Assembly: GCF_024159265.1 (NCBI RefSeq)
Contig: NZ_JAMYWY010000001.1
Span: 186,001-250,000, forward strand
Reading direction: 5' to 3'
DNA length: 64,000 bases
From: Paenibacillus sp. 1781tsa1
GTDB taxonomy: Bacteria > Bacillota > Bacilli > Paenibacillales > Paenibacillaceae
Shown here piece by piece: positions 4,941-58,408 of this stretch (positions within the stretch are counted from its first letter, which is position 1; the number at the start of each line of letters is the position of its first letter). The notes beneath the pieces are model-generated. The model made no database searches. It saw nothing but the letters and a program-made list of their open reading frames with translations, and had not been told where the DNA came from. Made by a program: the position numbers and the translations under genes.

Positions 4941-5058
4941 GCGGGCAGAACCAATCTGAAGAAGCGTTAGCGTTCGCCTTTATCACATGATTCCAACTTA
5001 TAAAAATAAGTTCAAAGGAATCAGGGGATAACAGCGATCGGAAGATGGTACTGCGTGC
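4941..5058 (+). repeat. Structured intergenic element, copy 1 (upstream of eno)
   Basis: This is one of four related structured copies in the window. The outer stem is GCGGGCAGAACCA (4941-4953) with TGGTACTGCGTGC (5046-5058). The middle stem is TCGC-CT-TTATC (4974-4984) with GATAA-CA-GCGA (5027-5037). Above it TGATTCC pairs with GGAATCA, and the apical hairpin AACTTAT-AAAA-ATAAGTT is perfect. Its 3' end is 73 nt before the eno start, on the same strand. The upper stem differs in sequence from the other copies but keeps its pairing. Function unknown; a leader RNA or processing element is possible. Confidence 0.7.
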
Positions 5059-5131
5059 GGAGTGGCCTGGTGAAACTGAACTATTCTGAACGTATTAAAA
5101 ATAAATTCAAATTTAAAGGAGATTATCACAA

Positions 5132-6418
5132 ATGACTATTATTTCTGACGTGTACGCTCGCGAAGTCCTCGACTCCCGCGGTAACCCTACAGTAGAAGTT
5201 GAAGTATACCTGGAGTCCGGCGCAATCGGACGCGCAATCGTTCCATCTGGTGCATCCACTGGTGCCCACGAAGCAGTTGAGCTTCGCGATGGCGACAAAT
5301 CCCGTTACCTCGGTAAAGGCGTTCTGCAAGCTGTTAAAAACGTAAACGAAACAATCGCTCCAGAAGTTATCGGTATGGATGCATTGGATCAACTGGGTAT
5401 CGACAAATTGATGATCACTTTGGATGGTACGCCAAACAAAGGTAAACTGGGTGCTAACGCAATCCTGGCTGTATCCATGGCAGTAGCTCGCGCAGCTGCT
5501 GACGCTCTGGACCTGCCATTGTACGTTTACCTGGGCGGATTCAACGCTAAAGCATTGCCAGTTCCAATGATGAACATCATCAACGGTGGTGAGCATGCGG
5601 ACAACAACATCGACGTTCAAGAGTTCATGGTTCTTCCAGTTGGAGCACCAAGCTTCAAAGAAGCTCTTCGCGTAGGTGCGGAAATCTTCCACAACCTGAA
5701 ATCCGTATTGAGCTCCAAAGGCTTGAACACAGCAGTAGGTGACGAAGGTGGTTTCGCACCGAACCTTGGTTCGAACGAAGAAGCAATCACTACAATCATC
5801 GAAGCGATTGAAAAAGCTGGTTACAAACCAGGCGTTGACGTATTCCTGGGTATGGACGTTGCTTCCACTGAGTTCTACAAAGATGGTAAGTACACACTTG
5901 CTGGCGAAGGTAAATCTTACACTTCCGCTGAGTATGTTGACCTTCTGGCTTCATGGGTTGAGAAATACCCAATCATCACAATCGAAGACGGTATGTCCGA
6001 AGATGACTGGGATGGTTGGAAATTGCTCACTGAGAAATTGGGAGACAAAGTACAACTCGTTGGTGATGACCTGTTCGTAACAAACACTGAGCGTCTGGGC
6101 AGAGGTATCGAAGAAGGTATCGGTAACTCCATCCTGATCAAAGTTAACCAAATCGGTACATTGACTGAAACATTTGATGCAATCGAAATGGCTAAACGTG
6201 CAGGATACACAGCTGTAATCTCCCACCGTTCCGGTGAGTCCGAAGACAGCACAATTGCTGATATCGCTGTTGCAACAAACGCTGGTCAAATCAAAACGGG
6301 TGCTCCTTCCCGTACAGACCGTATCGCGAAGTACAACCAATTGCTCCGCATTGAGGATCAACTGGGTGAACTGGCTCAATACAATGGTCTTAAAGGATTC
6401 TACAACCTTAAAAAATAA
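5132..6418 (+). CDS. eno: Enolase (phosphopyruvate hydratase)
   Basis: The 428-aa enzyme dehydrates 2-phosphoglycerate to phosphoenolpyruvate in the cytosol and usually forms an octamer in Firmicutes. Visible signatures are the N-terminal loop GASTGAHEAVELRDGD, the metal-binding regions around GDEGGFAPN, TIEDGMSEDDW and VGDDLFVTN, and the C-terminal SHRSGESEDSTIAD. The start follows AAAGGAGA at 5115-5122. It closes the glycolytic operon, with a strong terminator downstream. The 239-nt gap before it, holding structured-element copy 1, is the longest in the operon and may allow separate control of eno. Confidence 0.98.
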   Translation: MTIISDVYAREVLDSRGNPTVEVEVYLESGAIGRAIVPSGASTGAHEAVELRDGDKSRYLGKGVLQAVKNVNETIAPEVIGMDALDQLGIDKLMITLDGTPNKGKLGANAILAVSMAVARAAADALDLPLYVYLGGFNAKALPVPMMNIINGGEHADNNIDVQEFMVLPVGAPSFKEALRVGAEIFHNLKSVLSSKGLNTAVGDEGGFAPNLGSNEEAITTIIEAIEKAGYKPGVDVFLGMDVASTEFYKDGKYTLAGEGKSYTSAEYVDLLASWVEKYPIITIEDGMSEDDWDGWKLLTEKLGDKVQLVGDDLFVTNTERLGRGIEEGIGNSILIKVNQIGTLTETFDAIEMAKRAGYTAVISHRSGESEDSTIADIAVATNAGQIKTGAPSRTDRIAKYNQLLRIEDQLGELAQYNGLKGFYNLKK

Positions 6419-6469
6419 GCTGGATATCCAGCTTTTACGGGCAAGTCGGGTAACCGGCTTGTCTTTTTT
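6417..6469 (+). terminator. Rho-independent terminator of the glycolytic operon
   Basis: A short palindrome AAGCTGGATATCCAGCTT (6417-6434) overlaps the eno stop. It is followed by the main terminator stem GGCAAGTCGG (6440-6449) with CCGGCTTGTC (6454-6463), 10 bp with two G-T pairs, and a run of six T (6464-6469). Confidence 0.85.
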
Positions 6470-6630
6470 ATTGAAACGGTGTAATGATACAACGTACCGA
6501 TCACGTAGATGGTGAAATTTAGGGCATTGTATGAACTGCACTACTTGTATCACAACAATAGCTATGTTACAATTAAAGTAACTGTTTTTATGGTGAGATG
6601 TTATGCCCACATGGGTAGGAGGTGGAAAGA

Positions 6631-6864
6631 ATGGATATTGCTTTGAAATTGCTGCTCGTTGTCTTCTCGATCGGTCTAATCACTGTAGTATTGCTGCAGC
6701 ACGGGAAAAGCGCTGGTTTGGCGGGTGCCATCTCCGGTGGTGCGGAACATCTTTTCGGTAAAACGAAAGCGCGCGGATTGGATCTCTTCCTGCAACGTGC
6801 AACGGTGGTACTGGGTGCAGGATTTATGATTTTGTCTATTATTGTTACGGTGGTTTCCAAGTAA
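6631..6864 (+). CDS. secG: Preprotein translocase subunit SecG
   Basis: This 77-aa integral membrane protein is the small accessory subunit of the SecYEG translocon. Two hydrophobic segments are visible, at about residues 3-22 and 53-75. They flank the conserved cytoplasmic loop with SAGLAGAISGGAEHLFGKTKARGLD. A GTG at 6622 could extend the frame by three codons, but it lies inside the ribosome site. AGGAGG at 6617-6622 fits the ATG at 6631. It sits between eno and rnr, the usual Firmicute arrangement, and has its own terminator. Confidence 0.95.
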   Translation: MDIALKLLLVVFSIGLITVVLLQHGKSAGLAGAISGGAEHLFGKTKARGLDLFLQRATVVLGAGFMILSIIVTVVSK

Positions 6865-57435: not shown

Positions 57436-57503
57436 AGGTAGAATTGTATGGCGTTGATACACTACGTTGATATTTTACGACTACCGTGGCATTAAAAGTT
57501 ATG

Positions 57504-57793
57504 AGCACTTCGTTCCTTTTCAATGAAAAGCTCCGCTTCAGGCGGGATTTGGAGTCGTCCTTCCCGCCTTGCGGTCGGAGCAGAGCATGGAGCGAGCGCT
57601 AACGAATCTGAGGCGTCTTATTGAAGGATTCGAAGCGCTAGCAGAAATCTAAGGAACCTGACACACGCTATATGAGAATAAACAGCAGTTTACAGCGTTA
57701 TTAACAGCTAATTTCGGGAAATAAGTTGTCTGTTGTTCCTTACAATTTAAAAAGAGGACCAAAAGGCTAAATAAGACGCCCTGAGTTCCTTAG
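57504..57793. repeat. Long imperfect palindrome and nested inverted repeats
   Basis: AGCACTTCGTTCCTTTTCAA and the next base (57504-57524) oppose ATTGAAGGATTCGAAGCGCT (57620-57639). Inside, GCTCCG/CGGAGC (57530-57535 with 57576-57581) and GGCGGGA/TCCCGCC (57541-57547 with 57562-57568) form a strong stem. Overlapping pairs extend further: GGCGTCTTATT (57612-57622) with AATAAGACGCC (57770-57780). TAAGGAAC (57650-57657) can pair with GTTCCTTA (57735-57742), and CTAAGGAAC (57649-57657) with GTTCCTTAG (57785-57793). The last pairings are mutually exclusive, so alternative folds are possible. Confidence 0.65.
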
Positions 57794-57857
57794 AAAATTT
57801 TCTTTCCATTCGCCAGGATCAGCCAGTTTACATTCCCCTAGAGGCAAGAGGAGAATG

Positions 57858-58310
57858 TGGGACTCATAGTAATTGGAGCCGGCAAAATAATCGGACCGAT
57901 GGACGGACTACGCCCTTTATATGTCGGAACTTACCGTTTACAGCAAAACGGAGAACACAAAGCCAAGTCCGAAGCAGCAAAGCTTGCCCCTTCCGCCATT
58001 GGATTTCCCTATAGAAATGAGGGGGAAATAAGGTGTTCATAGTGATTGAAGATGCCACCGCAATCAAAATAACAAAGTTACTACGCCCCTTAATAGATAA
58101 ACTTACCGTTTACGCCAAAACGGAGAGTGCAGAACCAATCCGAAGCAGCGAAGAACTCATTCTTCTCCTCCCGATTTTCCAGAGGAAAAAGGAGGAAATA
58201 AGGGTTTCATAGGAATTGGAGATGGCACCGCAATCAAAATAACAAAGTTACTACGCCCCATAATAGTTAAACATACCGTTTACGCCAAAACGGAGAGTGC
58301 AGAACCAATC
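57858..58310 (+). repeat. Tandem array of ~170-bp units
   Basis: Three units can be aligned on ACTACGCCC (57907, 58080, 58250), giving spacings of 173 and 170 bp. Units 2 and 3 are nearly identical over about 90 nt. Each carries the hairpin CCGTTT-ACGCCA-AAACGG (58096-58113 and 58276-58293). In each unit it is followed by a related CGGAGA..AGAACCAA(T)C.GAAG segment, which is the 5' part of the structured element. Unit 3 continues into full element copy 4. Unit 1 is more diverged. Confidence 0.75.
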
Positions 58311-58408
58311 TGAAGAAGCGAAGCGCTCGCCTTTATCCCCGGATTTTCCCTTTAGGACAATAATCAAAAAATCTGGGGATAACAGCGATCGAAAGATGGT
58401 ACTGCACT
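58296..58408 (+). repeat. Structured intergenic element, copy 4 (upstream of the second GH29 gene)
   Basis: Outer stem AGTGCAGAACCA (58296-58307) with TGGTACTGCACT (58397-58408), 11 of 12 paired with one A-A mismatch, as in copy 1. The next stem TTATCCCCGGATTTT pairs with AAAATCTGGGGATAA over 15 bp with a single G-T, the best paired of the four. TCGC/GCGA flanks it across a two-base internal loop. The 3' end is 63 nt before the GH29 start, same strand. Confidence 0.75.

Follow-up and report, generated by a model that had tools for sequence, protein, structure and literature searches.

Bacterial miniature inverted-repeat transposable elements (MITEs) have mostly been viewed as transposon ends around filler. 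The closest described systems, as portrayed in excerpts of the papers cited here, are RUP of Streptococcus pneumoniae, a short, 107 bp MITE of the IS630-Spn1 type with many intergenic copies, IS630-like terminal repeats and a TA target (PMC2229807, PMC3049150), the enterobacterial ERIC/IRU, a large imperfect palindrome with TA ends that is co-transcribed and affects mRNA in an orientation-dependent manner through an RNase E site (PMC2229807, PMC10969869, PMC3049150), and the Correia/NEMIS elements of Neisseria, TA-ended MITEs whose transcripts fold and are cleaved by RNase III at the terminal repeats (PMC2229807, PMC10969869). BOX, also from S. pneumoniae, is modular and structured and can be transcribed as a 5′ or 3′ extension of operons; together with RUP and SPRITE, it is enriched in convergent gaps, with 61-63% of copies on the leading strand (RUP 60.9%) (PMC3049150). 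Here, we follow up four structured elements in a 64,000-nucleotide stretch of the Paenibacillus sp. 1781tsa1 genome (contig NZ_JAMYWY010000001.1, positions 186,001 to 250,000; the whole stretch is called the window hereafter). An earlier note, made from the letters alone, had described them as a family of structured leaders, and sequence comparison indicates that they are copies of a unit that is both mobile and structured.

Going by the descriptions of RUP, ERIC and Correia, all three of them MITEs with TA ends whose transcripts fold, the Paenibacillus family is set apart by an unusually conserved, covarying interior and by a different context preference. Unlike RUP, with its enrichment in convergent gaps, the Paenibacillus element has 8 of 107 copies in such gaps and 70 of 83 tandem copies in the sense direction, and the RUP descriptions in the excerpts at hand mention no conserved covarying interior. 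ERIC belongs to another bacterial group, whereas the element described here has a branched fold with a near-invariant core, and its effect on mRNA is only proposed. BOX is likewise overrepresented in convergent gaps, according to the same excerpts, while the long form of the Paenibacillus element differs from the short one by a single internal module of ~38 nt. In related genomes, three IS630-family elements (L400, L387 and L383) have the terminal repeat in common with the element and differ from it in their length of 1.13-1.16 kb and their transposase frames. No description of this repeat was found in the open-licence literature searched; an RNA-seq study of P. riograndensis compared leaders with Rfam, according to the part of the paper available (PMC5670726), and that database holds no family for the element.

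The explanation to which we give slightly better than even odds (roughly 0.55) is a mobile, TA-inserting MITE of the IS630 type whose sense strand is predicted to form a conserved, branched RNA that would act in mRNA leaders independently of the gene. It is based on sequence comparison, namely on syntenic presence and absence, TA duplication, IS630 ends, covariation, slower change of stems, and the sense position near start codons.

Results

The four copies lie where the earlier note had placed them, at 4941-5058, 47316-47428, 56208-56318 and 58296-58408, all on the + strand with a shared core, and the downstream products had been named correctly as enolase, GH3, Gfo/Idh and alpha-L-fucosidase (GH29). 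The start codons (5132, 47515, 56377 and 58472) are 59-87 nt from these ends, in good keeping with the 58-86 nt claimed. The sequence GGGGATAANAGYGATCG, allowing up to three mismatches, matches five times in the window as against 0.92 expected from shuffles; four matches are exact, one per copy, while the fifth falls in copy 4's opposite arm, read on the - strand. Folding z scores range from -4.1 to -6.3 per copy, with 0 of 200 shuffles as stable, and 7 of 28 predicted pairs are changed on both sides across the four copies. While the core positions stood, the true unit is longer than first described, with terminal arms that lie outside the covariance-model matches as well. In window numbering (model coordinates converted with an offset of 186000; all + strand), the structured core of copy 1 in the enolase leader, whose outer arms have diverged, spans 4919..5082 (135.6 bits, E 1.1e-32), that of copy 2 in the GH3 leader 47292..47455 (142.3 bits, E 1.6e-34), that of copy 3 in the Gfo/Idh leader 56182..56345 (150.7 bits, E 8.6e-37; P1 subfamily AAATCGATTC/GAACGATTCG) and that of copy 4 in the GH29 leader 58273..58433 (153 bits, E 2.0e-37; P1 subfamily AACCAATC/GATGGT). 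With its terminal arms, copy 2 occupies 47272..47470, the ends being approximate; this is the stretch that, in a 16-genome alignment, is lacking where distant members of the genus, G042 among them, have an empty site. The P3 hairpins, delimited by the exact pattern from CGCCTTTATC to GGGGATAA, lie at 4975..5031, 47348..47404, 56238..56295 and 58328..58382.

The covariance-model search of Paenibacillus genomes called for in the earlier note reveals a family much larger than four copies. The pattern CGCCTTTATC-N10..50-GGGGATAA gives 54 matches in the strain's own genome and none in a reversed control, and a model built from 46 of these, excluding eight with an internal module, gives at least 149 matches there, exactly four of them within the window. 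A tile search, with 66 matches over all genomes tiled, of which 4 short, partial reverse-strand ones were dropped before counting, identified 31 own copies in 800 kb, 30 of which are among the 149. In a first set of 39 genomes, own included, 28 have model matches, comprising all 24 of the genus and, outside it, G026 (1 match, E 7.5e-19), G028 (7 matches, best 1.1e-15) and two marginal genomes. Matches were counted up to 74 per genome, and some members of the genus have no more than 1-16. A class-wide sample of 200 genomes, own included, produced matches in 17, of which 10 belong to the genus and 7 to three further genera of its family; the remaining 183, from outside the family, gave no model match under stricter filters. 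Going by these matches, the element is present in three sister genera and in every genome of the genus to which the model was applied. All 80 records among the matches listed for the exact core pattern are Paenibacillus, and a single 141-base query gave no phage match and two plasmid records, NZ_CP054609.1 and NZ_CP054613.1, both from P. cellulosilyticus. The copies are unevenly spread over the own chromosome: in 0.5 Mb bins, there are 1, 3 and 6 between 3.0 and 4.5 Mb, as against 20, 21 and 17 in those that begin at 4.5, 5.5 and 6.0 Mb.

Read from the outside inward, the element comprises TA, a terminal arm TATAAGTTGAACTAA, the paired TTTACAC/GTGTAAA, an internal loop in which each strand carries CGGAG, the stem P1, in which subfamilies differ as pairs, then GAAGAAGCG with the small hairpin P2, and innermost P3, with near-invariant strands CGCCTTTATC/GGGGATAACAGCG and a variable top. 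The interior is more conserved than the arms. With its arms, the element measures ~190-235 nt (model matches are mostly 150-203 nt), leaving no room for a transposase gene. A module of ~38 nt in P2 produces the long form, and 59 of the 149 own matches exceed 185 nt. This module is present in one species and absent from another at the same enolase (G001) and GH3 (G012) sites and at own 361716, 6387300 and 6503865, and was thus gained or lost independently.

The earlier note had taken the covarying arms as an argument against a mobile element. That argument is not supported, since close relatives have or lack a copy at syntenic places, insertion duplicates TA and the terminal repeat is that of IS630-family elements; covariation alone does not exclude a mobile element. 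In the two regions that were compared, the own genome is mostly collinear with G016, with mean identities of 92.6 and 95.7% over aligned stretches longer than 1.5 kb. Sites were counted in both directions: of the 31 own copies in the 800 kb, 23 are shared with G016, 7 have no copy at the syntenic place and 1 could not be mapped, while 23 of 25 G016 copies are shared and 2 lack a counterpart; between own and G011, five of six copies are shared in each direction. The GH3 site in the 16 aligned genomes is found in several states. There is no copy in G050, G042, G045 and G053, which are more distant by identity, nor in G016, G011 and G039; an old copy is found in own, G008, G003 and G012 (with the module in the last); joined arms alone remain in G048, G041 and G002; and G022 and G023 carry a fresh, consensus-like copy within an arm remnant, with TA on both sides. 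We read these states, rather than a tree, as insertion, a deletion remnant and re-insertion, in that probable order. A second clean empty site (CAAATC-TA-ACAA) is seen on comparing own 1708095 with P. amylolyticus, and TA duplication is visible both there and in G022/G023 versus G048 at the GH3 site.

Both terminal 12-mers are recognisable (up to 3 substitutions) in 78 of 246 unique copies, the remainder being more diverged, and TA flanks both ends in 44 of these 78, with CTAG as the target in 14 of the 44. IS630 prefers CTAG and duplicates TA. REP/RAYT and IS200/IS605-derived elements insert without target duplication, and the duplicated TA speaks against an origin of that kind. Deletion forms retain little beyond the arms, the smallest being a 35-bp palindrome (G000:C1:2949539), and, among the first 100 of 131 right-core matches, those inspected that are outside the model list are deletion derivatives or truncations. 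Copies were also seen nested in the top of another copy's hairpin, or in the loop of terminator-like hairpins (L006, L007, L031; L011, L026; L089 versus own L290).

A candidate partner was found among genes for PF13358 proteins. Thirty such loci were examined, and at three (L400, L387 and L383) the element's terminal repeat, with at most 2 substitutions per 12-mer, stands at both ends of a unit of 1.13-1.16 kb, with CTA and TAG as flanks in each case. Over 18 bases, L400 begins on its left with the right-arm consensus of the element, and the open frame in L383 is 355 aa long. By eye, the interiors of the three show no similarity to the element beyond the ends. As the ends are shared with IS630-family elements and nothing inside is alike, we take the element to be an IS630-type MITE whose interior comes from elsewhere. 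A PF13358 protein occurs in 17 of 60 genus genomes at E 1e-3, 15 of them above the cut-off, and no coding copy is apparent in the own genome, where inspection by eye of 94 terminal-repeat matches gave no inward pair 0.8-3 kb apart. We infer an IS630 transposase as the mover, and movement in trans by such enzymes is likely from the shared ends.

That the fold covaries, as first proposed from four copies, holds in a larger alignment. A set of 106 copies (105 distinct) taken from 80 loci has 96.8% of cells paired, compared to 89.2% after shuffling, and pairing drops to 31-48% when partners are slid by 1-3; both sides are changed in 23 of 33 pairs (259 cells), and all five measures exceed 500 of 500 shuffles, figures obtained with alignments that, being made with a covariance model, lean towards the model's structure. 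Two sister genera keep the core, and a near-invariant A-U pair of P3 is G-C there. One P3 G·U pair stays G·U in 32 of 46 copies of the own genome and in 89 of 104 from elsewhere. At the enolase site, copy 1 is present at the orthologous position in 10 of 18 genus genomes, and both outer arms are swapped as a pair between own plus G013 and the eight others, an exchange that, on the aligned copies, is a compensatory change or a conversion. A 13-nt identity, CTGGGGATAACAG, between the conserved P3 strand and 23S rRNA (own, G000:C1 ~16601-16613) was also noticed; it was equalled or exceeded in 11 of 300 shuffles and is not relied on.

To follow individual copies after insertion, orthologous pairs were compared; they share copies between three genomes and are not fully independent. 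Eighteen of 32 pass as the same copy (unpaired divergence up to 0.2), while the remaining 14 look likely to have been replaced or converted. In the 18, changed sites number 39 of 1146 in stems as against 156 of 2085 in flanks, with 39 of 635 in junctions and internal loops, 48 of 638 in the outer columns, 42 of 373 in the top of P3 and 24 of 117 in the P2 loop or module. By these counts, stems change at about half the flank rate after insertion. One-sided stem changes in the same pairs led to G·U 16 times and to A·C 4 times (p 0.012), with 10 other mismatches, and own copies in the alignment overall have 51 G·U against 5 A·C, or 19 against 5 without one G·U-rich pair. The slower change of stems and the preference for G·U over A·C indicate that the sense strand is the folding strand. 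Stability comparisons likewise uphold the view that the sense strand folds better than the antisense: in 176 of 208 copies its RNA has the greater stability, with a mean of -55.7 versus -50.6 kcal/mol, and the sense-antisense difference averages -0.75 in 120 mononucleotide shuffles versus -4.49 for the same real sequences.

Covariation may also be made by mutation and repair, through template switching between hairpin arms or conversion between copies. The swapping of arms as blocks between subfamilies, even at the one enolase site, would be accounted for in this way, as would the 14 of 32 orthologous copies that are so different that replacement or conversion is likely. Arm repair would, however, yield a Watson-Crick pair where the P3 G·U pair is kept, and neither the single compensatory A-U to G-C changes in P3 of other genera nor the strand-specific G·U excess is expected from it; we thus regard this explanation as improbable.

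Gene context was derived for 109 of the 149 own copies with a simple open reading frame (ORF) caller, so that single neighbours or start codons may be wrong. Of the 107 with two neighbours, 70 are sense to both, 16 lie in divergent gaps, 13 are antisense to both and 8 are convergent; 1 copy is inside a called ORF. For 29 of 31 copies of G016 and G011, the corresponding numbers are 19, 3, 4 and 3, with 2 inside called ORFs. Thus, most own copies (86 of 107) are sense upstream of a gene, as claimed for the four. Random orientation, or convergent gaps as frequent as positions before genes, had been named as evidence that would speak against a selected RNA; instead, tandem gaps hold 70 sense and 13 antisense copies (p 1.3e-10), and the 8 convergent cases among 107 copies compare with 57 of 444 background gaps (p 0.14). 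The model ends at most 60 nt from the start codon in 55 of 86 sense copies, copies are closer to the downstream than to the upstream gene, and sense copies ending so near start codons leave little room for a promoter after the element.

Proteins encoded downstream were scanned for 40 of 54 sense 3′ genes within 200 nt. They are mixed, including enolase, histidyl-tRNA synthetase, DNA ligase and glycoside hydrolases, with many housekeeping functions and no common pathway; as a raw share, about a quarter are carbohydrate-related. The lack of a common pathway among the 40 makes a gene-specific regulatory leader unlikely. The earlier note's reading is partly borne out, as far as a conserved, covarying, sense-oriented fold before genes is concerned. 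A cis-regulatory RNA tied to particular genes, for instance a riboswitch, and passed on by ordinary descent would share that fold and that position, but is at odds with the mobility, TA duplication and IS630 ends, the diversity of the 40 proteins, the turnover between species and the missing Rfam match, and we consider it highly implausible. The element had not been recognised as a named riboswitch or ribozyme, and this agrees with the searches: at the gathering score, Rfam 15 yields in the window only the transfer-messenger RNA gene (11565-11929, RF00023), copy 4 at E up to 10 meets only microRNA models far under the cut-off, and at seven further loci the matches, to RNase P and a purine riboswitch, lie beyond the elements. 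Nor was a match to a known repeat lacking structure found. No sense-strand terminator-like site is present at the enolase and GH3 copies.

A mobile promoter, with transcription driven by the TATATA at the arm's outer end and an interior that is merely incidental, was considered as well, since TATATA stands at the ends of many copies near start codons. A scan of the + strand gave no consensus promoter between the elements and the start codons of the four window genes, although it requires T at the sixth place of the -10 hexamer and is blind to TATATA. The greater conservation of the interior than of the arms also argues against such a promoter, as does a weak promoter-like site just before copy 2 (TGTACA-18-TAGAAT, 9/12, 47241..47270, + strand; 1.6 expected in shuffles), and we hold this explanation to be very unlikely. 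The promoter-like site is at the end of a block conserved in 16 of 16 aligned genomes, its hexamers not being intact in all. Before the GH3 copy, at window 47196-47262, AATCTGTTAATATG.GACTA..TACAAGTGAATCTACCA is kept in 16 of 16 genomes, even amid diverged surroundings, and is possibly an operator or promoter.

Discussion

The results suggest a model in which an element of ~190-235 bp, which inserts at TA and duplicates it, was likely moved in trans by IS630-type transposases. The landed element would become part of the mRNA start, where its sense strand would fold into a compact, branched RNA, and this fold, located between promoter and ribosome-binding site, may protect or insulate the 5′ end of the transcript, whatever the gene. 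In Firmicutes, 5′ hairpins slow mRNA decay. A general effect of this kind in leaders fits a mixed set of downstream genes, copies that lie near start codons and their bias towards the sense direction. We infer that the fold would form as RNA in the cell and have an effect there.

Several observations weigh against this explanation. No PF13358 protein was found in the own genome, G016 or G011, nor in G022 and G023 with their fresh insertion. One-sided stem changes in the 18 same-copy pairs break pairing nearly as often as they keep it (14 versus 16, with 3 both-sided changes kept), so that the constraint is partial; over the full set of 32 ortholog pairs, pairing survives 30 one-sided changes and is lost in 38, while it survives 39 both-sided changes and is lost in 11. 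Part of the G·U excess and of the covariation could come from strand-biased mutation or from conversion between copies. Copies antisense to the next gene fit the model equally well (short forms, median 156.6 versus 152.7 bits for sense, p 0.37), so the fold is no better preserved in leaders. Orientation follows the replication fork in 118 of 149 copies (half-megabase bins), and sense to antisense ratios are 65:9 on leading-strand and 5:4 on lagging-strand tandem genes (p 0.03); with nine lagging-strand cases, the influences of fork and gene direction are inseparable. Finally, close species differ in a quarter to a third of their sites, and no single copy would thus be indispensable.

Much of this would follow if the element were a purely selfish IS630-type MITE, whose fold serves its own spread or tolerance, whose landed copies are neutral, and whose biases result from least-harm insertion and fork-linked insertion. 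The high turnover between close species, the deletion remnants, the mixed downstream genes and the weak orientation bias on lagging-strand genes are all in line with such an element, and it keeps substantial weight because antisense copies match the model as well as sense copies. A neutral copy would, however, not be expected to have stems that change at about half the flank rate, with a 16:4 excess of G·U, at fixed sites, nor an enolase copy in 10 of 18 genomes with a paired change of both arms. The IS630-type reaction needs only the element ends, which would leave the conserved interior unexplained. On balance, we consider a purely selfish element possible and yet less probable than a mobile unit with a gene-independent leader function.

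If that function exists, one may tentatively go further and picture an RNA domain captured between IS630-type ends, scattered over ~150 sites per genome in the Paenibacillaceae and read by a common trans-acting factor, be it a nuclease, the ribosome or an RNA-binding protein. We find this extension doubtful at present, but if true, one mobile family would set the stability or translation of many unrelated genes. In contrast to the usual view of bacterial MITEs, the interior is here the best conserved part, covarying like a functional RNA across genera and constrained after insertion, and the ~150 structured leaders per genome are missing from Rfam. The filled, empty, remnant and re-inserted sites at the same leaders in relatives make the passage from transposon to 5′ untranslated region directly testable, and the same series of sites makes it testable whether a structured RNA spreads as a mobile unit.

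Some arrangements of copies may be added. At G000:C1:4970372-4970894 (L038), three consecutive copies lie in a common direction with a spacing of 180 nt. Between purC-like and purS-like genes at L059, two GC-rich copies are placed head to head, at 4747-4913 (-) and 5083-5250 (+), and similar pairs occur in L075, L081, L087, L103 and L108, giving six loci from different strains, with the genes named for L059 only. The head-to-head copies of the purC/purS region have P3 altered to TTTGTC/GGGGACAA.

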